Shown one piece after another: positions 25,075 through 51,176 of a stretch of 64,000 bases of DNA. Numbering within the stretch: the stretch's first letter is position 1; each line of letters starts with the position of its first letter. The notes below the pieces were generated by a model. It searched no databases. It was given only the letters and a program-made list of their open reading frames with translations, and had not been told where the DNA came from. Origin of the DNA: Pseudomonas sp. KBW05 (GTDB lineage Bacteria; Pseudomonadota; Gammaproteobacteria; Pseudomonadales; Pseudomonadaceae); the NCBI RefSeq assembly GCF_003852405.1, contig NZ_QAJM01000001.1:1-64000 (forward strand), given 5' to 3'. The position numbers and the translations under genes are program-made.

Positions 25075-25815
25075 TCATCGCACCGGTGCAACCAACGTGC
25101 GCCCCTGCTCCCACAACCCGGTCATGCGCCATTGCTGCTCCAAAACACCTTCACCGAACGGCCGCACGCCCCCGAGGTTTTCCCCCAGTGCCTGGAAGTA
25201 AGCGCCCTCTTCAAACAGCAAGATCCATTCAGCCGATTGCAACAGGGCCGGCCCAAAGAACGTCGCGCCGCCATTGGCTTCCAGCACCGCTGGCGTGTGC
25301 GGGTTGGCGGTGAGCACATCCAGGATAAACTCGGCTTCAGGCTGACGCCGGTCGATGTACACCGGCAGCTCGCGGGCCAGCGTTACCCGTTGTGCCGCAG
25401 CATAGTTGAGCGGGAACACCCGATGCGCCGCCGCATAACCTCCCAGGTACGGCGTGTGCACATGGATCACCACGTTGACCTGCGGCGCGCCGCGAAAGGT
25501 CGCCGCATAACGGCGGCCACCACCGCCCTGGCGGCTGGCGCTCAGGGGCTGGCCCGGCGCCAGGTATTCATCCAGATGCACCACGCCGTCGTAGCTCGCG
25601 ACCACCGCACGGATGCTCTGGTCATCGTCCCACGGGCCAGGCGTGGCCACGACGATCAGCAAGTCGCTGCCCGGCACCCGCACATGGGCCTGGAAGGTGT
25701 TGGTGGCGGTCAAGGTGCGGGTGTCCTTGAGCACCTTGAAAATCTTCGCGGTATCACGCTTGGTCTGTTCGACCTGGTGCAGCAGGGCTTCACTCAACGG
25801 GGCAGGCTGGCTCAC
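25075..25815 (-). CDS. Class II aldolase/adducin-family protein
   Basis: This 246-residue protein resembles the class II aldolase/adducin fold. The metal-site motif VIHVHTPYLGGY (two of the usual zinc histidines) and a C-terminal Glu/Leu-rich helix are visible. The proposed GTG start at 25815 has a well-spaced GGAG; a longer ATG frame would run through the promoter and operator. Upstream on its strand is a good sigma-54 promoter (25865-25880), next to the same CAGCA/TGCTG elements that serve the divergent monooxygenase gene. It is therefore probably a member of the organosulfur regulon. The substrate is unknown. Confidence 0.75.
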   Translation of the reverse strand: MSQPAPLSEALLHQVEQTKRDTAKIFKVLKDTRTLTATNTFQAHVRVPGSDLLIVVATPGPWDDDQSIRAVVASYDGVVHLDEYLAPGQPLSASRQGGGGRRYAATFRGAPQVNVVIHVHTPYLGGYAAAHRVFPLNYAAAQRVTLARELPVYIDRRQPEAEFILDVLTANPHTPAVLEANGGATFFGPALLQSAEWILLFEEGAYFQALGENLGGVRPFGEGVLEQQWRMTGLWEQGRTLVAPVR

Positions 25816-25864
25816 TTGATGAACTCCAGAATCAGGAAATGGGTTACTCCATCTCTCAGCTCTC

Positions 25865-25880
25865 AGCACGAGTTGTGCCA
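25865..25880 (-). promoter_or_regulatory. Sigma-54 promoter for the class II aldolase gene
   Basis: On the minus strand TGGCACAACTCGTGCT has the -24 TGGCAC and -12 GTGCT boxes with the exact GG-N10-GC spacing. It lies 50 bases before the GTG start. It mirrors the promoter at 26024-26039 across the shared CAGCA/TGCTG elements. Confidence 0.65.
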
Positions 25881-25933
25881 GCCGCCACAGGCCCGTGATC
25901 CGGGGCATGTACGCCGCGCGGATGTTGTCTCCC

Positions 25934-25967
25934 CAGCAACCACTGCTGACCGACTGCTGCCACAGCA
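25934..25967. promoter_or_regulatory. CAGCA/TGCTG activator-site cluster A
   Basis: CAGCA-N5-TGCTG (25934-25948) and TGCTG-N3-CAGCA (25955-25967) lie between two divergent sigma-54 promoters, about 60 bases from each. The TGCTG-N3-CAGCA form recurs in clusters B, C and D, and the CAGCA-N5-TGCTG form in E. It is the likely enhancer for the sigma-54 activator encoded at 34630-35697. Confidence 0.6.
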
Positions 25968-26023
25968 GCACCCGGCCCTGCTCACCGCCGGATCGAGCCT
26001 GCGATTACGCCGCCCTGGGGGAC

Positions 26024-26039
26024 TGGCATGGGCGTTGCT
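26024..26039 (+). promoter_or_regulatory. Sigma-54 promoter for monooxygenase 1
   Basis: TGGCATGGGCGTTGCT matches the consensus TGGCAC-N5-TTGCT except for one base, with GG-N10-GC spacing. It lies 42 bases upstream of the ATG at 26082. Confidence 0.75.
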
Positions 26040-26081
26040 ATCAGCCTCTGCAACGTTTTCCATTTCCTTTCGGGAGCCTGT

Positions 26082-27212
26082 ATGAGCACGGAGTTTTTCT
26101 GGCGGTTGCCCCTGGGCACCGACGGCCAGCAACTGAGTACAGACCTGCACAACCGCGGCAGCTTCAACCGCAGCCCTGGGCATATCGCGCCAGGCCATCG
26201 GCCCAACGGCGAGCCGGATGGCTTCACCTACATCGACTACATCGCGCAGGTGGCCAAGGCCGCCGAGCTGGCCGGCTTCGAAGGTGCGTTGTTGCCCACC
26301 GGCCCGGAGCCGTGGATCGTCGCCGCGGCGCTGGCCCGCGAGACCCGGCGCATTCGTTTCCTGGTGGCGTTCCAGGCCACGTGGACCCTGCCCGCCTACG
26401 CCGCGCAGCAGGCCGCGATCCTGCAACACCTGAGCCACGGGCGCCTGGACTGGAACATCATCACCGGCGGCAACCCGGCCAGCCAGCGCGCCCAGGGCGA
26501 TTTCCTCGAACATGACCAGCGCTACCGGCGCACCGGCGAATTTCTCGACATCATTCAGGGCCTGTGGGAGCACGAGACGTTCTCCTATGAGGGCCAGGTC
26601 TACCAGCTGGAGAACGGTTCACTGCCCCCCGGCCTGCGCGCCGAACGCAAACCCGGCGTGTACTTTTCCGGCTTCTCCGAGCCTGCGCTGGACGTCGCCG
26701 CCAAGCACGCCGACGTGTACCTGAACTGGGCCGAGCCGTTGGACAAGCTCCAGCCGCACATGGACCGGGTTCGCGAGCGCGCCGCGCAACAAGGCCGCGA
26801 AGTGCGCTTCGGCCTGCGTGTGGACTTGTTCGCCCGGGAAACCGAAGAAGCCGCCTGGCGCGACTTGCGTCGCCAGTTCGACGCCGTGGGCAATCGCGGC
26901 AGCAACGAGGCCAAGGCCTTTGTCGGCGGCTCGGATTCGGTGGGCGCCGCACGCCAGACCGCCTATCACCAGAATGTCGACCGCTTTGAAGACCTGATTA
27001 TCGGCCCCAACCTGTGGGCCGGCTTTGCCAAGGCCAAGCCCGGCCCCACCGTGGGCCTGGTAGGCAGCCATGAAAACGTCGCCGAACGCCTGGCCGAGTA
27101 CCGTGACGCGGGTTTCTCGACCTTTATCCTCGCCAGCAACCCACACCTGGAAGAAGCCCTGCGCATCGGCCAGGAAGTATTGCCGCTGGTGCAAGACCGC
27201 CCTTCGCGCTGA
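26082..27212 (+). CDS. SsuD-like FMN-dependent monooxygenase (1 of 3)
   Basis: This 376-residue bacterial-luciferase-like (LLM class) protein is closest in pattern to alkanesulfonate monooxygenases: GFTYIDYIAQVAKAAELAGFEGALLPTG, RLDWNIITGGN, VGSHENVAERLAEYRDAGFSTFILASNPHLEEAL. Such enzymes use reduced FMN and O2 to cleave a C-S bond and release sulfite, and they need a separate flavin reductase. The ATG at 26082 has a GGGAG site; the frame upstream overlaps the promoter. It is followed after 11 bases by the DszB-like gene, so the pair is probably one transcript ending at the terminator at 28304. Confidence 0.88.
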   Translation: MSTEFFWRLPLGTDGQQLSTDLHNRGSFNRSPGHIAPGHRPNGEPDGFTYIDYIAQVAKAAELAGFEGALLPTGPEPWIVAAALARETRRIRFLVAFQATWTLPAYAAQQAAILQHLSHGRLDWNIITGGNPASQRAQGDFLEHDQRYRRTGEFLDIIQGLWEHETFSYEGQVYQLENGSLPPGLRAERKPGVYFSGFSEPALDVAAKHADVYLNWAEPLDKLQPHMDRVRERAAQQGREVRFGLRVDLFARETEEAAWRDLRRQFDAVGNRGSNEAKAFVGGSDSVGAARQTAYHQNVDRFEDLIIGPNLWAGFAKAKPGPTVGLVGSHENVAERLAEYRDAGFSTFILASNPHLEEALRIGQEVLPLVQDRPSR

Positions 27213-27223
27213 ACAGGATGACC

Positions 27224-28285
27224 ATGAGCACACCTTCTCTCGACACCCTCTGGTACACCCACAGCCCGGTGCCGACCGGCCTCGGCATCGCTGTGGAATC
27301 AGGGCGCCTGGCCGAGGCGTTCCTGCCTTCGGGCACCAATATCCAGGCCCTGCGCGAGTCCAGCGAGCGGGATATCCGCGAAGCCCATTACGACCATCAC
27401 CTGCCCAATTCCGTGCGCCACGGCGGCAACATTCCGGCGATCTGGGCCTACGCCAACGGCGGCGACACGCGCCTGCTGGGGTTGTCGTGGAGCGACGAAG
27501 TGCAGTTGATCCTGACCACCGTTGAAAGCGGGGTCAAAACCGTGCGCGACCTCAAGCACCGCCGCTTCGGCATCCCCAAGTGGGCCAACGTGCAGATCGA
27601 CTTCACCCGCGCCCAAGCCCTGCGCGGCCTGGAAAATGCGCTGAAACTGGAAGGCATGAGCGTCAGCGACGTGGACCTGGTGGACTACCCCTACGGCGGC
27701 ACCTACAGCGATGAACAGATGCGCCACGTCCACGGCGCCCAGGTGTCGTTCGGTTTCAACCGCGCGCAACGGCGCAACAACGAGCTGATCGGCCTGCTGC
27801 GCGGCGACATCGACGCGATCTTTCTCAAGGGCGCCCACGCCGTGCAACTGGCTGCCGAGTTCGGCCTGCATGTGGTGATCGACACCGGCTCCCACCCCGA
27901 CCCGATGATCCGTTCCAACAACGGCACGCCGCGCACACTCACCGTGGACGGGCATTTGCGCGAGCATCACTTCGACGCCGCGAAAACCATCGTCGACTGC
28001 GTGCTGCGCGCCGAGCAATGGGCCTGGGCCAACCCCGAGAAGACCCGCCAGTTCCTCGCCCGCGAACTCAACACCAGCGAGTACTGGGTGGCCACGGCCT
28101 ATGGCGAAGATGCCCATCGGCGCCTGCGCACCATGCTCGATGAACAGTCGATCCTGGCGTTGCAGGACTTCACCGATTTCCTCCATCGCTGGCAGTTCAT
28201 CCCACGGCGTTTCGATGTGCGTGACTGGATTGATTTCAGCGTGCTGGAAAGTGTCCTCGGTGCCACTTCACGCTTGTCCGTCTAG
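27224..28285 (+). CDS. DszB-like sulfinate desulfinase homologue with Ser at the Cys position
   Basis: This 353-residue protein has the periplasmic-binding fold of nitrate/sulfonate-binding proteins but no signal peptide, so it is cytoplasmic. The N-terminus DTLWYTHSPVPTG parallels the catalytic segment of DszB, the 2'-hydroxybiphenyl-2-sulfinate desulfinase. The DszB His/Arg pair ten residues apart is kept here as His55 and Arg65, in HYDHHLPNSVRHGGNIPA. The DszB nucleophile Cys is Ser14 here, whereas the paralogue at 47987-49036 has Cys20. It may be a desulfinase variant, a desulfinase-fold enzyme with other chemistry, or a binding protein. It follows monooxygenase 1 by 11 bases. The ATG at 27224 is preferred over 27218 for ribosome-site spacing. 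Confidence 0.72.
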   Translation: MSTPSLDTLWYTHSPVPTGLGIAVESGRLAEAFLPSGTNIQALRESSERDIREAHYDHHLPNSVRHGGNIPAIWAYANGGDTRLLGLSWSDEVQLILTTVESGVKTVRDLKHRRFGIPKWANVQIDFTRAQALRGLENALKLEGMSVSDVDLVDYPYGGTYSDEQMRHVHGAQVSFGFNRAQRRNNELIGLLRGDIDAIFLKGAHAVQLAAEFGLHVVIDTGSHPDPMIRSNNGTPRTLTVDGHLREHHFDAAKTIVDCVLRAEQWAWANPEKTRQFLARELNTSEYWVATAYGEDAHRRLRTMLDEQSILALQDFTDFLHRWQFIPRRFDVRDWIDFSVLESVLGATSRLSV

Positions 28286-28326: not shown

Positions 28327-28368
28327 CGCCCATGGAAAAGCCCGCCTGCTCACCCGCAAACAGCCCCT

Positions 28369-28395
28369 TGCTGACCGGCTGCTGCTGGGGCAGCA
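28369..28395. promoter_or_regulatory. TGCTG/CAGCA activator-site cluster B
   Basis: TTGCTGACCG is followed by TGCTG-GGG-CAGCA (28383-28395). The stretch TGCTGACCGGCTGCTG is almost the same as TGCTGACCGACTGCTG in cluster A. It lies about 50 bases upstream of the sigma-54 promoter of the TonB receptor gene. Confidence 0.6.
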
Positions 28396-28446: not shown

Positions 28447-28462
28447 TGGCACAGGCCCTGCT
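28447..28462 (+). promoter_or_regulatory. Sigma-54 promoter for TonB receptor 1
   Basis: TGGCACAGGCCCTGCT has a perfect -24 box, one change in the -12 box and GG-N10-GC spacing. It lies 90 bases before the ATG at 28553. Confidence 0.72.
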
Positions 28463-28552: not shown

Positions 28553-30793
28553 ATGTACCGCATCAACAGGATCACCCACAGCCTATGGCTGGCCACGGCA
28601 TTGACCGGCACGCTGCACAGCCTGCCCGCAATGGCACAGGAACAAACGCCCGCCGCCGACGACAGCGCGCCCACCCTCAAGTCGGTGACGGTCACCGCCC
28701 AGCGCCGCGAAGAAAGCGTGCAGGACATCGCCAACGCGGTCAGCGCCGTGTCCGGCGAAAGCCTCGGCCAGACCGGCACCGACTACATCGGCAAGGCCCT
28801 CAAGTTCGTGCCCAACGCCCAGGCCAACAACCCGGACGGCGATGCACGGCCGCGCTGGTACATTCGCGGCGTGGGCACTGGCGACCAGGGCGCCGCCACG
28901 GTGTTCCCGGTGGGCGTGTACGTCGACGATGTGTACCTCAACGCGCCGCTGGCCGGCGGCGACCCGCTGTTCGACCTGGACCGCATCGAGATCCTGCGCG
29001 GCCCGCAAGGCACGCTGTATGGCAAGAACACCACCGGTGGCGCGGTGAACATCCTGACCAAAAAACCGAGCTTTGAGAACGACGGCTACGCCACCCTCGG
29101 CTACGGCAGCAAGAACGAGAAAATCGTCAATGGCGCCATCGGCGGCACCCTGGTGGAAGACCGCCTGGCCGCGCGCGTCTCGCTGTATTCCAAGGAGCGC
29201 GACGGCTTTATCAAGAACGTCTATGACGACAAGGATTACGACCGCGTCGACAACAAAGCCGTGCGCCTGCAATTCCTCGCCAAGCTCAACCCCGACCTCA
29301 CCGCACTGTGGACCCTGCACGACAGCCAGACCCGCGGCACCGCAGCGGGCCTGTTGCCGGTGGGCAGCTTCCCCTGGCTGGGCGGCTATAACCGCAGCAA
29401 CCCGGACCGGCGTTACATCGACAGCAACGTCGACAATAAATCGAAGATCGAACACGCCGGCACGGCCCTGACCCTCAACTACGACCTGGGCGACTACCGC
29501 CTCACCTCGATCAGCGCCTACGACGAAACCAAGCAACGCAGCATCAGCGATGATGACCTGTCGCCGGTGGAAAGCGGGCGCAACTACACCAATAACCGCT
29601 GGCGCCAGTACTCCCAGGAATTCCGTGTTGCCTCGCCCACCAGCGAGACCCTGCGCTGGATCCTCGGCACGCACTTCTTCCACGAAGACCTGCAAAGCGC
29701 CGGTGCCACCTCGGCCTTGCCGGATGAAGGCGCGTCCGAGGCCAGCTATACCGGCACCTCATTCAGCCATAAAAACACCAGCTACGCGTTGTTCGGCAAC
29801 CTGGCCTACGACTTCACCGACCAGTTCACCGTTACCGGCGGCCTGCGTTGGACCCGCGAGAAAAAAGCCATCGACCTGGACCTGGTACAAACCACCGGCA
29901 GCAACTTCAACGGCGACTGGTGGGACTCGGGCTCCCTGCAAAACCCGGTGGACGTGACCGGCGCCGGCATCACCACCAACGGCAATGCCAAGCGCAACAA
30001 GACCTGGAGCGCGGTGACCTACGACCTGACTCCGGAATACCGCATCAACGACAACCTGCGGGTGTATGCCCGTTATGCCAAGGGCTTCCGCTCGGGGGCG
30101 TTCAACACCGGTTTGTCCAGCAGCCTGGAGCAGTTGAGCACGGTGCAGCCGGAAACCCTCAATTCCTACGAACTGGGGCTCAAGTCCGAGTGGTTCAACG
30201 GTCGGGTACACGCCAACGCCAACGTCTTCTACTACGACTACAAGGACATGCAGGTCAGCGCTACCACCACCACCGCCAGCGGCAGCCTGGTGTCGTTGCT
30301 CACCAATGGCGCCGAAGGCACGGCGCGTGGTGCGGAGTTCGAACTGGAAGCCCAGGCCACCGACAACCTGCACCTGCAACTGGCCGCCTCGGTGTTTTCC
30401 AGCGAGTTCACCGGCGACCTGTGGAAAGGCAACAGCTTTATCCGCGCGCCACGCCACACCTACGCGCTGGGCGCCGACTACCGGTTCCCGCTGGATATTC
30501 CAGGCGCCCTGGTCCTGGGCGGCGACCTGCGTTACCAGAGCAAGGAGTACTTCATCTCGGCGTACCAGCAGTCGCAGTGGACCTGGCTCAACCAGGGTGG
30601 CTACACCGTCAGCAATGCGCACCTGAGCTACACCACCGCCGATGAGAAGTACAACATCACCGGCTTCGTCAATAACCTCACCGACAAGCAGTACCAGAAC
30701 CACGGCATCTCCCTCAACCGTGGCAGCGCGCCGTATTGGGCATCGTTCGGTGACCCGCGCACCGCCGGTGTGACCGTGACGGCGAAGTTCTGA
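28553..30793 (+). CDS. TonB-dependent outer-membrane receptor (1 of 2)
   Basis: This 746-residue outer-membrane receptor has a signal peptide (residues 1-28, cleaved near AMAQE). A TonB-box-like segment (KSVTVTAQRREES) follows, then the plug domain (YIRGVGTGDQGAATVFPVGVYVDDVYLNAPL, EILRGPQGTLYGKNTTGGAVN) and a 22-strand barrel ending in an aromatic residue (VTVTAKF). It takes up a bulky ligand with energy from TonB. It is a clear paralogue of the receptor at 45748-47982. The upstream sigma-54 promoter and TGCTG sites, and the sulfur genes around it, suggest uptake of an organosulfur compound rather than a siderophore. An MFS gene follows after two bases. Confidence 0.9.
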   Translation: MYRINRITHSLWLATALTGTLHSLPAMAQEQTPAADDSAPTLKSVTVTAQRREESVQDIANAVSAVSGESLGQTGTDYIGKALKFVPNAQANNPDGDARPRWYIRGVGTGDQGAATVFPVGVYVDDVYLNAPLAGGDPLFDLDRIEILRGPQGTLYGKNTTGGAVNILTKKPSFENDGYATLGYGSKNEKIVNGAIGGTLVEDRLAARVSLYSKERDGFIKNVYDDKDYDRVDNKAVRLQFLAKLNPDLTALWTLHDSQTRGTAAGLLPVGSFPWLGGYNRSNPDRRYIDSNVDNKSKIEHAGTALTLNYDLGDYRLTSISAYDETKQRSISDDDLSPVESGRNYTNNRWRQYSQEFRVASPTSETLRWILGTHFFHEDLQSAGATSALPDEGASEASYTGTSFSHKNTSYALFGNLAYDFTDQFTVTGGLRWTREKKAIDLDLVQTTGSNFNGDWWDSGSLQNPVDVTGAGITTNGNAKRNKTWSAVTYDLTPEYRINDNLRVYARYAKGFRSGAFNTGLSSSLEQLSTVQPETLNSYELGLKSEWFNGRVHANANVFYYDYKDMQVSATTTTASGSLVSLLTNGAEGTARGAEFELEAQATDNLHLQLAASVFSSEFTGDLWKGNSFIRAPRHTYALGADYRFPLDIPGALVLGGDLRYQSKEYFISAYQQSQWTWLNQGGYTVSNAHLSYTTADEKYNITGFVNNLTDKQYQNHGISLNRGSAPYWASFGDPRTAGVTVTAKF

Positions 30794-30795
30794 GG

Positions 30796-31977
30796 ATGCC
30801 CGTGAAGACCTCGCGCCCGGGATTCCTGGTCAACTTCATGCTGCTGGCCACGTTCAGCGGCGCCACCATCGGCATGGCCAAGATCGTCACCACCTTGTAC
30901 GCCCTGTCGTTGGGGGCGAACGCCATGCAGGTGGGGATTATCTCGGCGATGGAATCCTTGGGGATGGTGTTTCTCACCCTGCCTGCGGGTTTCGTGATCG
31001 CCCGCTATGGCGCCAAGCCGATCTACTTTGCGTCGAGCCTTGGCCCGATGCTGGTCAACCTGCTGATCCCGCTATTCAGCGGTTGGCTGTGGCTGGCGCT
31101 GGCGCAGTGGCTGATCGGGTTGTTCATCCCGTTTCGCATCGTGGCGATGAACAGCGCCTTCCTGCGCGAACTCAAGCACCTGGGGCTGAGCAAGGCCGGC
31201 TGGTACCGCGGCGCCTTGACCCTGGGCCTGGGCTTGCTGGGGCCGCTGCTGGGCAACCAGTTCAGCGGCGAGGGCCAGTTTCACTGGGCGTTTGTGCTGA
31301 TCAGCCTGTGCTTTGGCGCGATGGCGGTGTACAGCCTGAGCTTCTGGGAAGGTGAACCGCCCAGCGAGCGCGCGCCTGCGCTCAACCTGGCGGACATGTT
31401 CAGCGAAGCCCGTGGGCTACTGGGGCATCGAGAGATCCGCGAGCCGTGCGCCATGGAGGCGCTGAACAGCGCGACCACCTCGGTGTTCAGCACCTTCATC
31501 ATCCTCTATGCGCTACAGGAGGCGGGCCTGTCTCAGGACCGTGCGGTGGCGTTGGTGGTGATTGAAGGGATCGGCGCGGTGCTGGCGCTGTTTGGCCTGG
31601 GGTACGCGCTGCGTCACCTCAGCCAGGGCTTGGCCTATGGCGTGAGCCTGCTGTTTGGCATAGCGGCGCTGCTGCTGATCGGGCTGAGTCGGGACTTTGT
31701 CTGGCTAGCCCTGGCGGGGGTTCTGCTGAGCCTTGCGGCCGCCGCGTTGCACCTGCTGAACATGAACCAACTCAGCCAGCAGGTACAGGACAAGAGCAAG
31801 GTGTCGGGGCTGTTCCAGCTCGCCTCCATGGCCGGCGGTTTTGTCGGAGCCATGGCGGGCGGTGTGATCAGTTACCTGATCGGCCTCGGCCCTCTGTTTA
31901 TGTGCTGGGCGCTGCTGATCCTGGTGATCGCGGCGACCTGGTATACGGCACGGCGCCACGTGCCGGTCGCGGCCTGA
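30796..31977 (+). CDS. MFS transporter
   Basis: This 393-residue, twelve-helix MFS protein starts two bases after the TonB receptor gene and must share its transcript. Visible features are an opening helix LVNFMLLATFSGATIGMAKIVTTLYALSLGANAMQVG, a GFVIARYGAKPIYFAS loop between helices 2 and 3, and a central loop near residue 195. I cannot assign a subfamily. It may carry the receptor's ligand across the inner membrane or export a product. The C-terminus ends where activator cluster C begins. Confidence 0.83.
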   Translation: MPVKTSRPGFLVNFMLLATFSGATIGMAKIVTTLYALSLGANAMQVGIISAMESLGMVFLTLPAGFVIARYGAKPIYFASSLGPMLVNLLIPLFSGWLWLALAQWLIGLFIPFRIVAMNSAFLRELKHLGLSKAGWYRGALTLGLGLLGPLLGNQFSGEGQFHWAFVLISLCFGAMAVYSLSFWEGEPPSERAPALNLADMFSEARGLLGHREIREPCAMEALNSATTSVFSTFIILYALQEAGLSQDRAVALVVIEGIGAVLALFGLGYALRHLSQGLAYGVSLLFGIAALLLIGLSRDFVWLALAGVLLSLAAAALHLLNMNQLSQQVQDKSKVSGLFQLASMAGGFVGAMAGGVISYLIGLGPLFMCWALLILVIAATWYTARRHVPVAA

Positions 31978-32015
31978 CTGCTGCTGTAGCAGCAGTGCAC
32001 CAGCAACGCGTTGCC
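31977..32015. promoter_or_regulatory. TGCTG/CAGCA activator-site cluster C
   Basis: A 20-base near-perfect palindrome (31977-31996) contains TGCTG-TAG-CAGCA (31982-31994). CAGCA-N5-TTGCC follows (32001-32015). It lies about 75 bases upstream of the sigma-54 promoter of the ABC operon. Confidence 0.6.
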
Positions 32016-32068: not shown

Positions 32069-32084
32069 TGGCATACAAGCTGCA
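32069..32084 (+). promoter_or_regulatory. Sigma-54 promoter for the SsuC/SsuB-like operon
   Basis: TGGCATACAAGCTGCA keeps GG-N10-GC and the -24 TGGCAY and -12 CTGCA boxes. It lies 36 bases before the ATG at 32120. Confidence 0.68.
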
Positions 32085-34591: not shown

Positions 34592-34629
34592 AGGGGATGG
34601 TGTTGAGTCAGGCCGTAAGCGTGCGCCTG

Positions 34630-35697
<1,068 letters not shown>

Positions 35698-35809
35698 CTT
35701 ACGGTCCTGTTTCCAAAGTACTTGGGCGCCATAGTGAACCAAGCCGCATAGATAAAATAATTATTAATTGGCATTTGAATATTCCAATAAAACATATGAG
35801 ATTCACTGC

Positions 35810-35855
35810 TGCTGGAGCAGCAATCCATCAGCAATCGGTCGCTGCTGATTCAGCA
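35810..35855. promoter_or_regulatory. TGCTG/CAGCA activator-site cluster D
   Basis: Two TGCTG-N3-CAGCA sites (35810-35822 and 35843-35855) lie between the activator gene and the M20 operon, about 53 bases from the sigma-54 promoter at 35908. An extra CAGCA lies between them. It is the densest cluster of the set and lies next to the regulator gene itself. Confidence 0.62.
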
Positions 35856-35907: not shown

Positions 35908-35923
35908 TGGCATGCATTCTGCG
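35908..35923 (+). promoter_or_regulatory. Sigma-54 promoter for the M20-SsuA-SsuD-Dpp operon
   Basis: TGGCATGCATTCTGCG has GG-N10-GC spacing and a good -24 box; the last base of the -12 box is off consensus. It lies 42 bases before the ATG at 35965. Confidence 0.62.
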
Positions 35924-42135: not shown

Positions 42136-42222
42136 GTGGGAGCGGGCTTGCTCGCGAATGCGGTCTTCCAGTTGATGAATTCATGGCTGACACACCGCAT
42201 TCGCGAGCAAGCCCGCTCCCAC
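42136..42222. repeat. REPIN (inverted REP pair) 2
   Basis: The 28-base arms at 42136-42163 and 42195-42222 are perfect complements and identical to those of REPIN 1, around a different 31-base loop. On the plus strand it is followed by a short T-run, so it can act as a terminator between the two convergent halves of the peptide transporter. Confidence 0.93.
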
Positions 42223-43700: not shown

Positions 43701-44542
43701 GGCGTGTGCTCCAGGACCCCGGCGCGCACCCGGCCGATGCCTTCGGCGAGCATGTTGCTGGCATAGGCGAACACGCCGATCAGCAGCGCCGGCACCAGCA
43801 CCGCCCAGGGTTGCAGGACCAGCCCGCCCTGGTTCTCGCTGATCATCAGGCCCCAATCCGCCGCCGGCGGCGCCACGCCGTAACCGAGAAAGCTCAGCCC
43901 CGACAAGATGCCGATGGCCCAGGTCAGCATGCTGCCAAAATGCACGAGCATGGGGGTGAGGATATTCGGCAGCACTTCGCGCAGCAGCAGGTGGCGGCGC
44001 GGCAAGCCCATGGCCCGCAGCACTTCGATGAACTCCTGCTCGACCACAGCCTGGGTGCTGGCGCGGGTCTGGCGGATCATGCCGGGCAAAAACGCGAAGG
44101 CCACCGTCAGCACGATCAGCCACGGCTCGCGCCCCAGCAGCGAGACCACCAGCAGCACCAGGATCAACTCGGGAAACGCCAGGGACAGGTCGGCGCTCCA
44201 GCGGATCAAACGGTCCAGCGGCCCACGGGAAAAACCCGCCAGCAGCCCCAGGCCCGCGCCCACCAGCAACGCAAGCAATGCGGCCGCCAACGCCATCCAC
44301 ACCACGCTCCAACCGCCTACCAGCACCCGTGACAGCACGTCATGCCCGAGGTAGTCGTAGCCCAGCGGCGCACGGGTGCTGGGCGCGCCGTACACGGGCC
44401 CGAGCAGTTCACTCGCGCCATGGGGCGCCAGCAGCGGCCCGGCCAGTGCCAGGCCGATCACCAGCAGGCTCAGGCCGGCGCCCTGGCGCACTTGTCGATT
44501 GGCGGCCAAGGCACGCCAAGGTAAGCACAGCATCAGGTTCAC
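43697..44542 (-). CDS. Dipeptide-type ABC permease C
   Basis: This 281-residue DppC/OppC-like permease shows the family N-terminus with a first helix GLSLLVIGLALAGPLLAPHG, then LGYDYLGHDVLSRVLVGG and the EAA loop FIEVLRAMGLPRRHLLLREVLPNILTP. The GTG start at 44542 overlaps the stop of monooxygenase 3 as GTGA, so translation is probably coupled. It should pair with permease B, which is encoded in the convergent operon. A later ATG at 44533 is an alternative. Confidence 0.9.
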   Translation of the reverse strand: MNLMLCLPWRALAANRQVRQGAGLSLLVIGLALAGPLLAPHGASELLGPVYGAPSTRAPLGYDYLGHDVLSRVLVGGWSVVWMALAAALLALLVGAGLGLLAGFSRGPLDRLIRWSADLSLAFPELILVLLVVSLLGREPWLIVLTVAFAFLPGMIRQTRASTQAVVEQEFIEVLRAMGLPRRHLLLREVLPNILTPMLVHFGSMLTWAIGILSGLSFLGYGVAPPAADWGLMISENQGGLVLQPWAVLVPALLIGVFAYASNMLAEGIGRVRAGVLEHTP

Positions 44543-45699
44543 CTCGCCGACAACAACGGGATGTCGAAACCGTGATCCAGATCCAGCAACGGGAACAGCA
44601 GATCCGCCACGCGTTGCGCTTCGTCGATCAGCGGATAACCCGAGAGGATGAACGCCGACACGCCCTGCGCCTGGTACTCACGCACGCGCTCGGCCACCTG
44701 GATGGCACTGCCCACCAGATAGGTACCGGCCGCCGGACGCAGAATGTCGAACCCAAACAGGCTCGGCCCGACCCACACGTTGGGGTAGATCTCCAGTTCC
44801 CGCGCCGTGGGCAGGCGGCCTTCGCGCAGGGTTTGCAGGTTGCGTTGCACCTGGGGGTCGTCACTGACGTACGTCTCCAGGGTTTCGCCCGGGGGCAACT
44901 GCGCGGCCACGCCGTCGAGGGCGGTTTGCAGGGAGGTGCGCTGCAACAACAACTCGGCGTGGGCCCACGCCTCTTCTTCGGTCTCGCGCACGATAATCTG
45001 CAAGCGCGTACCAAAACGCAGGCTGCGCCCGCGCTTGGCCGCCTCCAAGCCGACGCGGCGGAACTTGTCCCCCAGGCGTGGCGGCGTATCGGCAAAGCTC
45101 AGGTACACGTCGAGCAGGTCGGCCGAGTGGGCCACACCGGCGTCGGACGTGCCCGCGCCCCAGAACTCGATGGGCGTGGATTGCGTCGGCGCCAGCCAAC
45201 CGCCCAACGGGTGCTCGGCGTCTGCCGGATCGCGGGGTGCCAGGTTGATGTATCTACCGGCAAAACCTTCGGTTTCACCGGCGTACACACTGCGAAAAGC
45301 CCGCCAGTAGTCGCGGCTGAAGTCGTAGCGCTCATCGTGGGGGAAATGCACGCCCAAGGCCGCCAGGCCGCTGTCATCGCCATTGACCAGGTTGAGCAAC
45401 AAACGCCCACCGGAATACTGGTCGAAGCTCAACGCCCACTTGGCCAATACCGCTGGCGACAGTTCACCGGGGTACTGCGCAATCAAAAACCGCAGGCGTT
45501 TGGTCGCATCGATCAAGGCAGCGGCCGTGGCCAGGTTGGAATTGGGGCTGGTGCCCAGCAGCGAGCCGTAATAACCCAGGCGGTCGGCGACCACGGCAAT
45601 CTGCTTGAGCTGTTCGAAACCGGTCACCCAGCGCCCGGCCGCTTCCCACGGGTACGGGCCATCGGGGGTGGTGAGGTACCACAAGAGTTTGATCGTCAT
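44539..45699 (-). CDS. SsuD-like FMN-dependent monooxygenase (3 of 3)
   Basis: This 386-residue luciferase-like enzyme shows the alkanesulfonate-monooxygenase pattern: LLWYLTTPDGPYPWEAAGRW at the start, then GGRLLLNLVNGDD, FWGAGTSDAG and a closing GVSAFILSGYPLIDEAQRVADLLFPLL. It is predicted to oxygenate a C-S compound with reduced FMN. No flavin reductase gene is in the window. It follows TonB receptor 2 by 48 bases and overlaps permease C by four bases, so it is translated in the same operon as the transporter. It has a different N-terminus from monooxygenases 1 and 2, so its substrate probably differs. Confidence 0.88.
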   Translation of the reverse strand: MTIKLLWYLTTPDGPYPWEAAGRWVTGFEQLKQIAVVADRLGYYGSLLGTSPNSNLATAAALIDATKRLRFLIAQYPGELSPAVLAKWALSFDQYSGGRLLLNLVNGDDSGLAALGVHFPHDERYDFSRDYWRAFRSVYAGETEGFAGRYINLAPRDPADAEHPLGGWLAPTQSTPIEFWGAGTSDAGVAHSADLLDVYLSFADTPPRLGDKFRRVGLEAAKRGRSLRFGTRLQIIVRETEEEAWAHAELLLQRTSLQTALDGVAAQLPPGETLETYVSDDPQVQRNLQTLREGRLPTARELEIYPNVWVGPSLFGFDILRPAAGTYLVGSAIQVAERVREYQAQGVSAFILSGYPLIDEAQRVADLLFPLLDLDHGFDIPLLSAR

Positions 45700-45747: not shown

Positions 45748-47982
45748 TTAGAAACGGGTCAGCGCACTGACACCAAAGGTGCGCCGGTCGCCCCGCGCGT
45801 CCCAGGCCACATCGAAGGGCAAGGGCACGCTGTCGGTCTTGTATTGTTTGTCGGTGAGGTTGTTGACGTAGGCGGTCAGGTCCAGGTCCAGGCGCCCGCC
45901 AAAGTGGTATGTGGCGCTGGCGCTGCCCAGGGTGTAGCCGCCTTGGGACACGCTGTGGTCCTGCTGGGCGGTGGGCAGGAAGTAGATGCGGCTCTGGTAG
46001 CGCCAGTCGCTGCCGAAGTTGAGCGCATTGCCGTTGTCCAGCGGGATGCGGTAGCTGGCGCCCACGGCCAGGGTGCGCGACGGCGAACGGGCGATGCGGT
46101 TGCCGGAGTAATCGACGCCGCCGGATTCGAAGTCCTGCAACTCCGTGTGCAACAGGCCCGCCGAGGCGTTCAGGTGCAGGTTGGTGAACGGCAGCGCTTC
46201 AAGTTCGAACTCGGCGCCGCGAATCACGCCCTTGCCACTGTTGGTCAGCAGCGACACCACCTGGCCGTCGCGCACCGACACGGCGTTGACCTGGATGTCT
46301 GAGTAGTCGTAGTAGAAGACGTTGGCGTTGGCGGTCAGGCGTTCATCAAACCATTCACTCTTGATCCCCAGTTCGTAGGCGTCGACGTTTTCCGGCGCCA
46401 CCACCGACGCTTCGGCTTGCACCAGCGCGCCGCCGCTGAAACCACCGGATCGGAAGCCCTTGGCATAACGGAAGTACACGCGGGCGTTGTCGTTGAGCTG
46501 GTACTCGGGGGTGATGTCGTAGGTGAGCTTGTTCCAGGTGCGTTTTTCGTCCTGCACCACGGTGGTCGCCAGCGGCCCGGTGTAGTGCTTCCACCACTGG
46601 TCGGCGCTGGCGAACGACACGGCATCACTGCTCGGCGCGGCCACGCGTTGCAGGTCGATGTCCTTGGTTTCGCGGGTCCAGCGTAGGCCGGTAGTGATAC
46701 TCAAGGGCTCGCTGACCTGCCAGGTGGTGCTGCCGAAGATTGCGAAACTGTCGGTGGTCTGGTCAATCGAGGTCTTGCCGTAATCGGCGACGCCGAACGC
46801 CTGGTTGTAGTCGGCCGGCAGCAACGCACTGCTGGAAGCGCTGTCCAGGTGTTCGTGGAACAGGTGGGTACCGACGATCCAGCTCACCGCCTGGTTCTTC
46901 GCCGAGGACAGGCGCAGTTCCTGGGAGGCCTGCTTCCAGTGGTCGTCGGAATAGGAGCGGCCGAACTCGTAGATACTCATGTTCGGGCCCTGGGCTTTTT
47001 CCTGGATGTCGTCGAACGCCGTAATCGAATCCAGTTGCAGCTCGCCCAGGTCCCACTTCAACGCCAGTTGCACGCCGTTGTGCTGGATGCGGTCGTCGGC
47101 CTTGCCGGTAAACGCGGCGTGGCCGGTGTTCGGCTTGGGCGCCGGGCCGAACAACGTGCTGCCGCCCGCCCCTGCGCCCCAGGCGCGGGTGGCGATGCCC
47201 TGGCCTTTGTAGTCGCGGGCATGCAGTTGCAGGGTGGCTTGCAGGTCATCGTTGATTTGCGCCAGCAGTTGCAGGCGCAGGGCTTGGTCGTGGATGTCGC
47301 CAACCGTGTGGCCGTCCACCTGGTTTTTCAATTGGCCGTCGCTGCTCTGGTCGATAAACGCCACGCGGCCGGCCAGCTTGTCCTTGAGCAAGGTGCCGCC
47401 GTAGGCGCCTTCATACAGCTTGGAGTTGTAGTTGCCAGCATCGGCCTTGAAGTAGCCTGCGGGATCTTCGAAGGTCGGTTTGCGCGAGACAAAGTTGATT
47501 GCCCCGCCGGTGGTGTTCTTGCCCCACAGGGTGCCTTGGGGGCCACGCAGCACTTCCACGCGCTCCATGTCATACAGCGGAAAACCGGTGGCCACGTGGG
47601 GGTCGATGTACACGTCGTCGGTGTAGATGCCCACCGGGTACACCGTGGTCGAGGCCATGTCGCCGGAGCCCATGCCTCGGATGTACCAGCGCGGGCGCTG
47701 GTGGCCGGCAAACTCCGGCGCGATGGCGTTGGGCACATTGCGCAGGGCTTTGCCGGCACTGAAACCGCCGCCGTTACTCTCGATGTCCTTGGCGCTGACC
47801 ACGGAGATCGCCGAGGGCACGTCCTGCAGCGATTCTTCGCGTTTTTGCGCGGTGACGGTCACCGTGGGCAACGCATCGTTAGCTGCGGCCACCGGTTCGT
47901 CGGCGGCGGCGAGTGGGCCGTGCAGCGCCAGGGCCCCGGCAATGGCCCAGGCCAGGAGGTTGAAGCGAAAGTGTGCGGGCAT
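45748..47982 (-). CDS. TonB-dependent outer-membrane receptor (2 of 2)
   Basis: This 744-residue receptor has a signal peptide (1-27, HGPLAAADE). A TonB-box-like PTVTVTAQKREES, a plug domain (YIRGMGSGDMASTTVYPVGIYTDDVYIDPHV, EVLRGPQGTLWGKNTTGGAIN) and a barrel ending in ALTRF follow. It is strikingly like the receptor at 28553 in plug sequence and length. Its ATG at 47982 is four bases past the stop of the DszB-like gene. The operon context (desulfinase-like, monooxygenase, ABC importer) suggests it takes up an organosulfur compound. The longer open frame upstream is out of frame with any conserved feature. Confidence 0.9.
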   Translation of the reverse strand: MPAHFRFNLLAWAIAGALALHGPLAAADEPVAAANDALPTVTVTAQKREESLQDVPSAISVVSAKDIESNGGGFSAGKALRNVPNAIAPEFAGHQRPRWYIRGMGSGDMASTTVYPVGIYTDDVYIDPHVATGFPLYDMERVEVLRGPQGTLWGKNTTGGAINFVSRKPTFEDPAGYFKADAGNYNSKLYEGAYGGTLLKDKLAGRVAFIDQSSDGQLKNQVDGHTVGDIHDQALRLQLLAQINDDLQATLQLHARDYKGQGIATRAWGAGAGGSTLFGPAPKPNTGHAAFTGKADDRIQHNGVQLALKWDLGELQLDSITAFDDIQEKAQGPNMSIYEFGRSYSDDHWKQASQELRLSSAKNQAVSWIVGTHLFHEHLDSASSSALLPADYNQAFGVADYGKTSIDQTTDSFAIFGSTTWQVSEPLSITTGLRWTRETKDIDLQRVAAPSSDAVSFASADQWWKHYTGPLATTVVQDEKRTWNKLTYDITPEYQLNDNARVYFRYAKGFRSGGFSGGALVQAEASVVAPENVDAYELGIKSEWFDERLTANANVFYYDYSDIQVNAVSVRDGQVVSLLTNSGKGVIRGAEFELEALPFTNLHLNASAGLLHTELQDFESGGVDYSGNRIARSPSRTLAVGASYRIPLDNGNALNFGSDWRYQSRIYFLPTAQQDHSVSQGGYTLGSASATYHFGGRLDLDLTAYVNNLTDKQYKTDSVPLPFDVAWDARGDRRTFGVSALTRF

Positions 47983-47986
47983 GGGC

Positions 47987-49036
47987 TTACTGTCCTTGGC
48001 TACGGTTGAGCAATGCGCGGGCGTCTTGCAACGGTTGGGGGGCGACCCACTGGGCGAGGTCGAAATCGTGCTCAAGGAAGCCATGCCGGTAGAGGAAGTT
48101 CTTTTGCAGCGCCAGGTACTCCAGGCGCTCGGCCGATAAATCCGGGTGCAGCGAGGTGTGGAAATCCCCCCGGTAGGCCGCCTCGACACCGGCACTGGCG
48201 GCACGGGTTTCTTCGGCGAGGATGCCGCGCAGCGCATCAAGGTTCTGCGCGGCCCAATCGGCGGCACGCAGCGTTTGCGCGAGGAACCGCACCACTACGT
48301 CGTAGTGCTCGTCCAACAGGTTCTGGTGGATGGTGATCGGGCGCGGCGTGCCGTTATTGATGCGTTGGCGAGGCGTGGCGACCTGGTCGAGGTCGATGCC
48401 CACCACCAAGCCCAGGCGCTGCGCGGCATCGGCGGCCGAGGCGCCCTTGACGTACACCGCGTCCACCTCGCCGCGCACCAGGTGATCGAGGCCCGACCAC
48501 AGGCGCTGCAAACCTTCCTCGGGCGGCAGGCTGTCGTCACGTGGGTGCAGGGCCACTTCCACCAGGTCCACATCGCTGAAATCCAGGCCGGCCAACGACA
48601 GCGCGCCCTTGTAGCCGGACAGGCTCATGGCGCGGGCGATGCTGCCGGGACGGTCCCCGGCTTCCCAGGCCGGCAGGGCCAGGCGCTTGCCGCGCAGGTC
48701 GGCGGGCGAACGAATGCCCGAGTCGGGACGCACGAGGATGGTTTGCCATTCCTCGATCCAGGTCAGGCCGATCAAGCGTGTGGGTGTACCGGCGCCGCGT
48801 GCGGCCAGGGCCGGCACGTTGCCGCCTTCACGAAACAGCCCCGGCAGTTCGTGATCGTAATGATGACGGCCCAGTTGCAAGGCGTCCTGCAAGGTGGCGA
48901 CGCGGATACCGTCGCGGGCGAATTCTTCGCCCAGCCAGCCGAGCTTGAAGGCAATACCCGAGGCGGTCGGCACCGGGCAGCGGGTGAACCACAGTGTGTC
49001 CAGGGTGGAAGGAGGCAAGGCAGCAGCAATGGGCAT
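47987..49036 (-). CDS. DszB-like sulfinate desulfinase homologue with the catalytic Cys
   Basis: This 349-residue cytoplasmic protein has no signal peptide. Its segment DTLWFTRCPVPTA carries Cys20 where DszB has its nucleophilic Cys27 (SNCPVP). His59 and Arg69 in HYDHELPGLFREGGNVPA match the DszB His60/Arg70 pair, with the same ten-residue spacing and the same RxGG turn. The closing segment DLAQWVAPQPLQDARALLNR also resembles DszB. DszB splits an aryl sulfinate to release sulfite. I therefore predict a sulfinate desulfinase, on a substrate not yet known. It heads the minus-strand operon and has a GGAG site and a sigma-54 promoter. Confidence 0.76.
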   Translation of the reverse strand: MPIAAALPPSTLDTLWFTRCPVPTASGIAFKLGWLGEEFARDGIRVATLQDALQLGRHHYDHELPGLFREGGNVPALAARGAGTPTRLIGLTWIEEWQTILVRPDSGIRSPADLRGKRLALPAWEAGDRPGSIARAMSLSGYKGALSLAGLDFSDVDLVEVALHPRDDSLPPEEGLQRLWSGLDHLVRGEVDAVYVKGASAADAAQRLGLVVGIDLDQVATPRQRINNGTPRPITIHQNLLDEHYDVVVRFLAQTLRAADWAAQNLDALRGILAEETRAASAGVEAAYRGDFHTSLHPDLSAERLEYLALQKNFLYRHGFLEHDFDLAQWVAPQPLQDARALLNRSQGQ

Positions 49037-49092: not shown

Positions 49093-49108
49093 CGCAACGA
49101 CCATGCCA
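49093..49108 (-). promoter_or_regulatory. Sigma-54 promoter for the DszB2-TonB2 operon
   Basis: On the minus strand TGGCATGGTCGTTGCG has GG-N10-GC spacing, a good -24 box and TTGC at -12. It lies 57 bases before the ATG at 49036 and mirrors the promoter at 49270-49285. Confidence 0.68.
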
Positions 49109-49170
49109 ATCATCCAAGCCAATGATTTATATGGATTTTATTCAGTGACTCGATTTTCAAAGGCATTGAC

Positions 49171-49207
49171 TGCTGCCAGCGCAGCAGGCCACCAGCAGCC
49201 ATTGCTG
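49171..49207. promoter_or_regulatory. TGCTG/CAGCA activator-site cluster E
   Basis: TGCTG-N6-CAGCA (49171-49186) and CAGCA-N5-TGCTG (49193-49207) lie midway between two divergent sigma-54 promoters, about 62 bases from each. The N5 form matches cluster A, but the N6 spacing departs from the N3 seen elsewhere. Confidence 0.55.
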
Positions 49208-49269
49208 CCAATGCCACAACCAGCGCGGTTGCGTCGCGCCAAAGCCCCAGCGCACGGGCAAATGCGCGC

Positions 49270-49285
49270 TGGCGCAGAACTTGCT
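49270..49285 (+). promoter_or_regulatory. Sigma-54 promoter for the DszC/SfnB-like gene
   Basis: TGGCGCAGAACTTGCT has GG-N10-GC spacing and a perfect -12 TTGCT box, with one change in the -24 box. It lies 48 bases before the ATG at 49334. Confidence 0.68.
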
Positions 49286-49333
49286 CAGGGCTGGCGTGAG
49301 CCTTTTTTCATCTGCCCAACGAGACGTTTACCC

Positions 49334-50551
49334 ATGAGCGACATCGCCCTGCCCCTACGCACCGAACGCCAGGCCCTGGACGCCGCCCACGCGGCCGCCC
49401 TGCGCATCGCCGAGCTGGCCCGCGACCCTGCGAACAACGAACAACTCCCGACCCGCCAGGCCCAATGGCTCTCCGATTACGGGCTGACCGCCATCGGCGT
49501 GCCCACCGCCTTGGGTGGTCTCGGCGCCTCAGTGCGCACCCAGGTCGAGGTGGTGCGGATCATTTCCACGGCCGATGGCGGCGTCGGCCAGTTGCTGCAG
49601 ATTCACTACGTGATGCTGCGCGGCATCCTCGAGGACTACAGCGCCACGGCACGCGAGCGCATCGTCAGCGATGTGTTGGCCGGCAAGCGCCTGGCCAACG
49701 CCCTGGCCGAAGTCGGCGGGAAAAACAAATTTGCCTTGAAGACCCGCGTCGAGCGGCGCGCCGACGGGCAACTGGTGCTCAACGGCAGCAAGTTCTATTC
49801 GACCGGCGCCTACCTGGCCGACTGGATCTGGCTGGCCGCCGCCTCAGAGCAAGGCGGCGCGGGTATCTGGCTACACCGCGACACCCCCGGCCTGACCCTG
49901 GTGGACGACTGGCGTGCCTTTGGCCAGCAGCATTCGGTGAGCGGCACCGTGCGCTTCGATGACGTGATCCTCGACCCCGACTTCGTGTTGCTGCGCGAAG
50001 GCCCGATGAAGCGCACCGGCCTGACCTTCCCGCAAATCCTCCACGCCGCTATCGACACCGGCATCGCCGCCGGCGCGTTGCAGGCCGGCGTCGACTACCT
50101 GCGCCAGCACGCACGACCGTGGGTGGAGAGTGGCGTCGATCACGCCTATGAAGAGCCCCACGTGATCCGCCAGATCGGCGAATTCGCCGTGGCCCTGCGC
50201 GCCGCCGAATCCCTGCTGCGCGACGCCGCCCGGCTGTTTGACCAGCATCTGCTGGATGAGCACGACACGGCCCTGCAAAGCGAGCTGATCCTTGCGGTGG
50301 CGACGGTGCGCGCCCACTCCGACAGTGCCTCGCTGAAAATCTCCAGCGAGATCTTCGCCCTGCTCGGCGCCAGTTCCGCCCTGAGCAAATGGAACCTCGA
50401 CCGCTTCTGGCGCAATGCGCGGGTGCACACCACCCATGATCCAATCCGCTGGCGTTTGCACCATGTCGGCAATTACTACCTCAACGGCGTGGACCCCGGC
50501 GAATACACCGCGATCCTCGCCAAAGGCGAACAGGGCCGTAAAGCCGGTTGA
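49334..50551 (+). CDS. Acyl-CoA-dehydrogenase-fold flavoprotein (DszC/SfnB-like)
   Basis: This 405-residue protein has the acyl-CoA dehydrogenase fold: an N-terminal helical domain, a middle domain around VGGKNKFALKTRVERRADGQLVLNGSKFYSTGA and a C-terminal four-helix domain with WNLDRFWRNARVHTTHDPIRWRLHHVGNYYLNG. That ending and the overall length suit the DszC/SfnB group. These are flavin-dependent monooxygenases of sulfur compounds, not CoA dehydrogenases. The ATG at 49334 follows the sigma-54 promoter; longer upstream frames run through the regulatory region. An ordinary acyl-CoA dehydrogenase is the alternative, but the context disfavours it. Confidence 0.8.
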   Translation: MSDIALPLRTERQALDAAHAAALRIAELARDPANNEQLPTRQAQWLSDYGLTAIGVPTALGGLGASVRTQVEVVRIISTADGGVGQLLQIHYVMLRGILEDYSATARERIVSDVLAGKRLANALAEVGGKNKFALKTRVERRADGQLVLNGSKFYSTGAYLADWIWLAAASEQGGAGIWLHRDTPGLTLVDDWRAFGQQHSVSGTVRFDDVILDPDFVLLREGPMKRTGLTFPQILHAAIDTGIAAGALQAGVDYLRQHARPWVESGVDHAYEEPHVIRQIGEFAVALRAAESLLRDAARLFDQHLLDEHDTALQSELILAVATVRAHSDSASLKISSEIFALLGASSALSKWNLDRFWRNARVHTTHDPIRWRLHHVGNYYLNGVDPGEYTAILAKGEQGRKAG

Positions 50552-50639
50552 GATGCAGGTAGCTGCAAGGAAGCGCCAATGTGTGATCCAATCGCCGCCA
50601 ACTCGCCCCAACCATCGGCACTACAAGGATATTGCGCAC

Positions 50640-51176
50640 ATGGCTGCTTCCAATAAATGGCTGATGTCATCAGTCGCTTATTACCTCGACTTTTTCACCG
50701 TCCCGCTGTTTATCGCCCTGGCCCTTTACCTCGCGCCGTTCGACGCCGGCCTGGCCCTGCTGGGCCTGCTGGCCTGGACGCTGGTGGAGTATTCGACGCA
50801 CCGCTTCCTGTTCCACTCGCTGTACCGCCGCGAACACTGGACCCACCATGTCGACGTGCTGGCCTATATCGGCGTGTCGAGCTGGAAGACCAGTTCCACC
50901 TTCGCCGCCCTGCTGCTGTTTGCCTGGTACATCGGGCTGACCTCGGTGTTTATCGGCGCGGTCACCGGTTACTTCTTCTACATTTCCCTGCACTACGTGA
51001 TGCATCGCCCCGAGCACTGGGCTTACCGCTACATTCCCGGTTTGGTGGCCAACCACGACCTGCATCACCGCAAGGGCATCGAGAAAAACTTCGGGGTGTC
51101 GTCCCCGCTCTGGGACCATGTCTTTCGCAGCTACATCCGCGCCGAATCGCTGAGCACCGAGGAAAAGCCAGCCTGA
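50640..51176 (+). CDS. Fatty acid hydroxylase / sterol desaturase superfamily protein
   Basis: This 178-residue membrane protein has about four helices and the di-iron histidine clusters of the superfamily: HRFLFH, HWTHH, HRPEH and NHDLHH. It therefore probably oxygenates a lipid-like substrate in the membrane. It follows the DszC/SfnB-like gene by 88 bases on the same strand and could be read from the same sigma-54 promoter, though a separate promoter is equally possible. Its 3' end overlaps the convergent LysR gene by 46 bases. The start at 50640 has AAGGAT upstream. Confidence 0.82.
   Translation: MAASNKWLMSSVAYYLDFFTVPLFIALALYLAPFDAGLALLGLLAWTLVEYSTHRFLFHSLYRREHWTHHVDVLAYIGVSSWKTSSTFAALLLFAWYIGLTSVFIGAVTGYFFYISLHYVMHRPEHWAYRYIPGLVANHDLHHRKGIEKNFGVSSPLWDHVFRSYIRAESLSTEEKPA

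Follow-up and report, generated by a model that had tools for sequence, protein, structure and literature searches.

The msuEDC-sfn genes with their regulators SfnR, SfnR1, and SfnR2, the 4S (Dsz) pathway, the Ssu alkanesulfonate system, and the yxe/scm pathway for S-(2-succino)cysteine of Bacillus subtilis are the described systems closest to a gene cluster at positions 25075–50551 of a 64-kb stretch at the start of contig 1 (hereafter, the window) of Pseudomonas sp. KBW05, a draft genome of 6.5 Mb in 69 contigs. With the first of these systems, the cluster has a sensorless sigma-54 activator in common, which matches the gene at the SfnR2 position of PA7 in clade and in helix-turn-helix core. 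The candidate targets in the window differ, however, in that they comprise 19 genes, among whose products are TonB receptors, two ABC importers, DszB-like proteins, and an M20 amidohydrolase; to our knowledge, this set is larger than the known msu and sfn regulons. As in the 4S pathway, a DszC-like enzyme, a flavin monooxygenase, and a DszB-like protein occur together, but the window proteins are distant from their Dsz counterparts, the monooxygenases are nearest to SsuD/MsuD, one DszB homolog lacks the catalytic cysteine, and control would be exerted by a sigma-54 activator. The Ssu system shares an SsuA/B/C-like importer and the SsuD superfamily; unlike it, the window has two unequal permeases, the presumed SsuD residues are partly or mostly changed, and scores fall below the equivalog cut-offs. 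The yxe/scm pathway likewise has an M20 enzyme (YxeP), a flavin monooxygenase, and an ABC importer, whereas the window M20 protein carries a signal-like N-terminus and recurs only in loci L081 and L082 and genome G372, the monooxygenases are of the SsuD type, and no N-acetyltransferase is found among the assigned genes.

We propose, with a probability of ≈0.8, that the cluster forms a regulon for sulfur scavenging under the control of an SfnR2-type enhancer-binding protein. The enhancer, the activator, and several of the operons are conserved together in other Pseudomonas. Besides the activator gene, the cluster holds 19 genes, mostly for uptake and C–S cleavage, in seven units deduced from spacing and strand: ald; ssuD1-dszB1; tbdr1-mfs; perm1-perm2-atp; M20-sbp2-ssuD2-oppA-oppB; dszB3-tbdr2-ssuD3-oppC-oppDF; and sfnB. 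The ald and dszB3 units are on the minus strand. A preliminary description of this DNA had listed three SsuD-like monooxygenases, two DszB-like proteins, a DszC/SfnB-like enzyme, two TonB receptors, an M20 amidohydrolase, and a class II aldolase, and these calls are confirmed by family scans and by comparison with the PDB. Its interval of about 20 genes holds as 19 genes plus the activator up to position 50551; the further extension to 51176 is unsupported. The genes are as follows.

25075..25815, minus strand: ald, class II aldolase/NovR-type protein (PF00596 scan, alignment)
26082..27212, plus strand: ssuD1, SsuD-superfamily flavin monooxygenase (family scan, PDB comparison)
27218..28285, plus strand: dszB1, DszB homolog with Ser at the Cys27 position (PDB comparison)
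28553..30793, plus strand: tbdr1, TonB-dependent receptor (family scan)
30796..31977, plus strand: mfs, MFS transporter (family scan)
32120..32902, plus strand: perm1, SsuC-like permease (family scan; start picked by eye)
32899..33654, plus strand: perm2, SsuC-like permease (family scan)
33672..34475, plus strand: atp, SsuB/SaoA-like ATPase (family scan; start picked by eye)
34630..35697, minus strand: SfnR2-type sigma-54 activator, sensorless (family scans, clade comparison)
35965..37314, plus strand: M20 amidohydrolase, probably periplasmic (best PDB relative YxeP; start picked by eye)
37311..38381, plus strand: sbp2, SsuA/NMT1-like solute-binding protein (family scan; signal-like N-terminus by eye)
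38403..39587, plus strand: ssuD2, SsuD-superfamily monooxygenase (family scan, PDB comparison)
39584..41170, plus strand: oppA, Opp/Dpp-type solute-binding protein (family scan)
41149..42117, plus strand: oppB, permease (family scan)
42246..43700, minus strand: oppDF, double OppD/F ATPase (family scan)
43697..44533, minus strand: oppC, permease (position and synteny in L211 and L149, not family scan)
44539..45699, minus strand: ssuD3, SsuD-superfamily monooxygenase (family scan, PDB comparison)
45748..47982, minus strand: tbdr2, TonB-dependent receptor (family scan; start picked by eye)
47987..49036, minus strand: dszB3, DszB homolog with Cys27, His60, and RxGG (PDB comparison)
49334..50551, plus strand: sfnB, SfnB/DszC-like flavoprotein (family scan, PDB comparison; start picked by eye)

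Five intergenic regions of the cluster have in common the candidate enhancer YTGCTG-N5-YTGCTG-N3-CAGCAR, in which two YTGCTG half-sites lie 11 bp apart and the inner one faces an inverted CAGCAR.

25943..25968, plus strand: enhancer 1, exact 26-mer, between ald and ssuD1
28368..28395, plus strand: enhancer 2
31981..32006, minus strand: enhancer 3, exact 26-mer
35809..35834, minus strand: enhancer 4, exact 26-mer, with a further palindrome at 35843-35855
49173..49198, minus strand: enhancer 5, two mismatches, between the divergent dszB3 and sfnB units

Enhancer 5 is the weakest of the five and the least conserved among relatives. Genome-wide, the pattern has three exact matches, all of them in this cluster. 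With up to two mismatches, there are 33 matches, eight of them within the five regions, against a single match for the backwards pattern. The remaining 25 fall elsewhere; among the 22 of these that were scored with the matrix described below, two exceed 14 (L028, 20.0; L029, 16.4), both within long open reading frames. The sequence TGCTGNNNCAGCA occurs seven times in the window, where 0.22 copies are expected from 100 Markov resamplings; five copies fall within four of the five enhancer regions, and two are elsewhere (2397 and 51219).

Our first comparative set consists of 80 loci with the activator gene from named Pseudomonas relatives, and an exact palindrome is found upstream of that gene in 50 of them, mostly 111–137 bp before the start. 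A 53-bp matrix was built from 47 distinct sites of other species that have this exact palindrome, leaving out two near-identical strains. Its 13 top matches in the window (overlapping registers counted) are all inside the five regions, near 25.95, 28.38, 31.98, 35.81, and 49.17 kb, and the 14th scores 9.1. Eleven matches exceed 13.7, the best score in 50 shuffled windows, and 60 column-permuted matrices gave no match at 13.7 on the window.

Candidate promoters were scored against TGGCAYRN4TTGCW, which we take to be the sigma-54 consensus. Seven sites in the 64 kb agree in at least 11 of the 12 letters, six at operon heads and one within ssuD1. At 10 letters or more, there are 30 sites, and seven of them have an enhancer no more than 115 bp away (0.54 expected, p = 8.6e-7). 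The seven sigma-54 promoters claimed earlier fit these seven sites, which are 72–98 bp from the enhancers, measured between approximate centers.

25865..25880, minus strand: candidate sigma-54 site of ald
26024..26039, plus strand: candidate sigma-54 site of ssuD1-dszB1, 12 of 12 letters
28447..28462, plus strand: candidate sigma-54 site of tbdr1-mfs
32069..32084, plus strand: candidate sigma-54 site of the Ssu-type importer (perm1-perm2-atp)
35908..35923, plus strand: candidate sigma-54 site of M20-sbp2-ssuD2-oppA-oppB
49093..49108, minus strand: candidate sigma-54 site of dszB3-tbdr2-ssuD3-oppC-oppDF
49270..49285, plus strand: candidate sigma-54 site of sfnB

Of the 80 loci described above, 4 contain the first 15 bases of the site at 35908..35923, and 19 contain TGGCATGCAATCTGC.

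The protein encoded at 34630-35697 (355 residues) has an AAA+ domain from about residue 22 and a C-terminal helix-turn-helix; it lacks an N-terminal sensor, as had been described. Sequence comparison places it in the clade of P. aeruginosa SfnR2, not with sfnR itself. It is 79% identical to a PA7 gene product (L155, 10001-11041) whose gene precedes msuD, msuC, and an sfnR1-type paralog, the helix-turn-helix cores of the two being identical, and 60–62% identical to members of the sfnR/sfnR1 clade. The genome also carries the canonical sfnR, a distinct paralog at 60% with the helix-turn-helix core HYNQVHTANLLGLSRNVTRTRLIKIGEL, and the sfnR locus (L021) has no enhancer, the top matrix score being 1.6. 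We take the PA7-position gene to be that of SfnR2, and the locus tag of SfnR2 is presumably PA2359. The assignment follows from the placing of SfnR1 with MsuCDE (PMC12581299) and from the grouping of P. aeruginosa msu genes with both sfnR1 and sfnR2 (PMC8234197). Upstream of msuC-sfnR1, the enhancer is found in L135 (25.0) and weakly in L136 (14.4), and the matrix scan does not find it there in L151, L153, and PA7. Among named genomes, the nearest activator genes are those of Pseudomonas sp. CBZ-4 (99%) and P. haemolytica DSM 108987 (97%).

A further conserved element precedes the activator gene.

35759..35784, minus strand: AT-rich block, candidate CysB-controlled promoter, ≈86 bp before the activator start

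The block is present in 75 of the 80 loci with up to three mismatches to a pattern derived from these same loci. Its sole exact match in the genome is the one at 35759..35784, and a second match, with two mismatches, is in L228. We infer that it may be a sulfur-starvation (CysB-type) promoter, by analogy with a 2008 study by Kouzuma.

To describe conservation, we used two further comparative sets: 399 sampled genomes of the genus, of which 57 are activator-positive and 342 negative, and 20 additional regions. The figure of 57 is a lower bound because five candidates were scored per genome and the activator of genome G372 (76% identical) was counted as negative. In the 80 loci, the matrix finds an enhancer (score of at least 14) 50–260 bp before the activator gene in 60, only elsewhere in the locus in 8, and nowhere in 12. 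The exact 26-mer occurs in 35 of the 57 activator-positive genomes versus 25 of the 342 negative ones (p = 1.7e-19). When three recurrent families are left out, which make up 31 of the 78 exact matches and are presumed to be coding, the figures are 30 of 57 versus 6 of 342. Within the 20 additional regions, an enhancer scoring at least 13 lies within 250 bp before 12 of 13 ssuD1 orthologs, 9 of 10 tbdr1, 7 of 10 perm1, and both lone oppA genes (L209 and L218), and in L208 the perm1-perm2-atp unit stands alone with an enhancer of its own. L094, L096, L101, L119, and L147 likewise have the enhancer in the space that separates ssuD1 from a divergent ald. A search for the gene set in other genomes had been called for, and the activator, the enhancer, and several operons do recur.

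The three monooxygenases belong to the SsuD superfamily as had been stated, and SsuD/MsuD are their best matches, but the evidence points away from alkanesulfonate monooxygenases. Their bit scores against TIGR03565 (SsuD) are 294.5, 232.1, and 262.5 versus an equivalog cut-off of 518, and they are also below the SfnG cut-off. With Cys54, Arg226, His228, Arg297, and Tyr331 taken as the catalytic positions of SsuD, alignment by eye leaves one of the five in ssuD1 (Arg226), one in ssuD2 (Tyr331), and three in ssuD3 (Arg226, Arg297, and Tyr331). Plain alkanesulfonates are therefore not the likeliest substrates. For sfnB, the best-scoring family is TIGR04022 (378.6 bits, below the cut-off of 430.9), and the best PDB matches are DszC (E = 5e-51). 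The ald protein scores 35.7 bits against Pfam PF00596 (gathering score 22.2) and 19.7 against an NCBIfam cut-off of 251. Its profile has the decarboxylase NovR as best PDB match (E = 1.8e-5) and also matches fuculose aldolases. It keeps the HVH motif and has NGG at the place of NHG in NovR (15 of 15 aligned sequences). The histidine of NHG is presumably the third metal ligand in class II aldolases, and the full set of three metal-binding histidines is thus not present in ald. The M20 amidohydrolase, whose best PDB relative is YxeP, begins with a signal-like stretch recognized by eye and is probably periplasmic. Since the gene was found only in the nearest relatives, we keep a reading in terms of N-acyl-cysteines as possible only.

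In place of the split importers of the preliminary description, the cluster encodes one Opp-type and one Ssu-type importer. In L211, ssuD3-oppA-oppB-oppC-oppDF are contiguous, with a separate oppA beside ssuD2, and L149 has the convergent arrangement of the window. These arrangements indicate that a single Opp importer has been rearranged, so that its halves now lie in two convergent units with the same enhancer type.

The two DszB homologs differ at the catalytic position. DszB is the best PDB match for both DszB1 and DszB3 (E-values for the two, 9e-18 and 7e-10), and the overall similarity of DszB3 to DszB is distant. The desulfinase residues Cys27, His60, and Arg70 (RxGG) are all kept in DszB3; DszB1 retains His60 and RxGG and has a serine in place of the catalytic Cys27. 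Matches to dszB1 at 1e-110 were found in 57 of the 399 genomes, and the site was examined in all of them: 56 were readable, and that of G372 was not. Every readable genome has the Ser form (one has two), 48 also carry an adjacent Cys form, and 8, including that of the window, have the Ser form only at that place; none of the 56 has the Cys form alone. Equivalents of His60 and RxGG are retained in all Ser forms with readable sites. The Ser form and the activator are found together in 56 of 57 genomes versus 1 of 342 (p = 3e-66, a descriptive value, as species are not independent), the exceptions being G045, in which the activator is present and dszB1 was not found, and G372. Outside the genus, relatives of dszB1 at 1e-30 were found in 3 of 321 genomes of the class, the window's own included; the other two are ≈30% identical.

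DszB1 is probably not a desulfinase and most likely binds substrate or partners a Cys form. A more specific proposal, to which we assign slightly less than even odds, is that the Ser form belongs to the core of the SfnR2 regulon, acting as one half of a two-subunit desulfinase with the Cys form, as a cytoplasmic sulfinate binder, or through new serine chemistry, in an undescribed, TonB-fed pathway for bulky organosulfur compounds. It seems doubtful that DszB1 is catalytically active with a different chemistry, such as the hydrolysis of sulfonate or sulfinate esters with Ser27 as the nucleophile. The retention of His60 and RxGG and the strong conservation of the Ser form would suit such an enzyme, but we know of no hydrolase with the DszB fold. 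In DszB itself, the C27S change abolishes activity, with a computed barrier that rises from 31.4 to 37.4 kcal/mol (PMC6100217). The Ser form, kept in eight genomes without a Cys neighbor, runs counter to the expectation that Cys27 is required, and it is the most surprising part of the regulon.

Several observations weigh against a single SfnR2-type regulon, and part of them would be expected if separately controlled sulfur operons had become neighbors by chance and the shared motif belonged to another regulator, an explanation that we consider unlikely. Gene content is a mosaic between species. The 12 of 80 loci that have no enhancer of at least 14 within the locus DNA scanned (L134, L139-L141, L144, L148, L150-L153, L155, and L156) include PA7, whose genome has three matches at one mismatch, the one inspected being within an ABC-type open reading frame. 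P. nitroreducens, P. nicosulfuronedens, and PA7, all among the 12, presumably lie near P. aeruginosa. On our reading, SfnR2-type activators in these loci must act from sites of another kind or farther away. In the intergenic space of sfnB and dszB3, the enhancer was found in two of 11 other genomes (L154, and L202 of G372) and not in the nine others with the divergent pair (L128, L205, L206, which is the place of L086, L207, L211, L213, L215, L217, and L219). The pair may have joined the regulon in few lineages or may use a sub-threshold site elsewhere; because the enhancer is missing in most relatives, the membership of these two units is weaker and would rest mainly on the window itself.

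Other points concern independence and gene content. Four of the five enhancers are independent of the training sites, whereas the one at 35.81 kb is their ortholog, and the core of the matrix is partly built in because training sites were picked by the exact palindrome. The 20 additional regions were mostly chosen for an exact enhancer match. The p-values overstate independence, since the genomes are related and the activator and dszB1 are often linked: the two share a contig in 37 of 56 genomes, 3.7–51 kb apart. They are on different contigs in the other 19, and in G007 both lie deep in long contigs, at least ≈160 kb apart. The plain sigma-54 consensus with two mismatches is not enriched in the window (40 matches versus 43.6 expected). 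Two of the three SsuD-like enzymes retain only one of the five catalytic SsuD residues, M20 was found in L081, L082, and G372 only among the relatives compared, and no flavin reductase is present among the assigned genes.

Against chance neighborhood stand the palindrome, which tracks the activator across genomes, and the lack of the motif at the genome's canonical sfnR locus. The earlier grouping into one sigma-54 regulon is supported by a shared, conserved enhancer before dispersed orthologous operons, and it is weakest for the sfnB/dszB3 pair. Slightly less probable still is a mainly carbon- or aromatic-compound catabolic regulon with incidental sulfur removal, which would accommodate the class II aldolase/NovR-type protein, TonB receptors, and Opp importer, none of them sulfur-specific. 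Against it speak the SfnR2-clade activator, the proteins resembling SfnB/DszC, DszB, and SsuA/SsuC, and the occurrence of the enhancer upstream of msuC-sfnR1 in L135 and, with a weak score, in L136.

In the sulfur-scavenging regulon that we propose, scarcity of sulfate would lead to synthesis of the activator, probably via CysB at the AT-rich block. As the protein has no sensor domain, it would need no signal; it would bind the enhancers, loop to sigma-54 polymerase, and turn on the units. The two TonB receptors, the periplasmic amidohydrolase, and the two ABC importers would take up organosulfur compounds that are bulky or conjugated, the SfnB/DszC-like and SsuD-superfamily monooxygenases would oxidize them and cut C–S bonds to yield sulfinates or sulfite, and the Cys-form DszB3 would free sulfite from a sulfinate.

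TonB-dependent uptake would thereby be tied to C–S cleavage under one switch. SfnR2-type activators gain a candidate enhancer, defined here, and their regulons become predictable in 57 of the 399 sampled genomes. The combination of genes had been called unrecognized; the activator does have a precedent in the SfnR2 clade, and in the portion of the open-access PMC literature consulted, whose coverage excludes key SfnR papers, we met no account of the enhancer, the cluster, or a Ser-form DszB.

The regulon is duplicated in genome G242 (L255 and L256), which carries two activators along with two Ser/Cys DszB pairs. In G372 (L201, L202, and L277), dszB1, M20, oppA, and other regulon genes match in pieces. 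This looks like a frameshifted assembly and could reflect assembly error or decay. A further DszB-like group, with TRCGAATA instead of TRCPVPTA, is found in L129, L130, L145, and L156, where it adjoins genes for a TonB receptor and a class II aldolase-like protein.

Downstream of sfnB, a fatty-acid-hydroxylase-like open reading frame (50415-51176) had been taken as the end of the cluster. We dropped it as a regulon member, as it has no tblastn match in the 80 loci or in the 20 additional regions, at most 12 of which show an sfnB ortholog at 73% or more. Two long, near-identical hairpins (GTGGGAGCGGGCTTGCTCGCGAATGCGG and its complement) lie between convergent gene ends at 34505-34592 and 42136-42222; resembling repetitive extragenic palindromic (REP) sequences by eye, they are likely repetitive elements or terminators.

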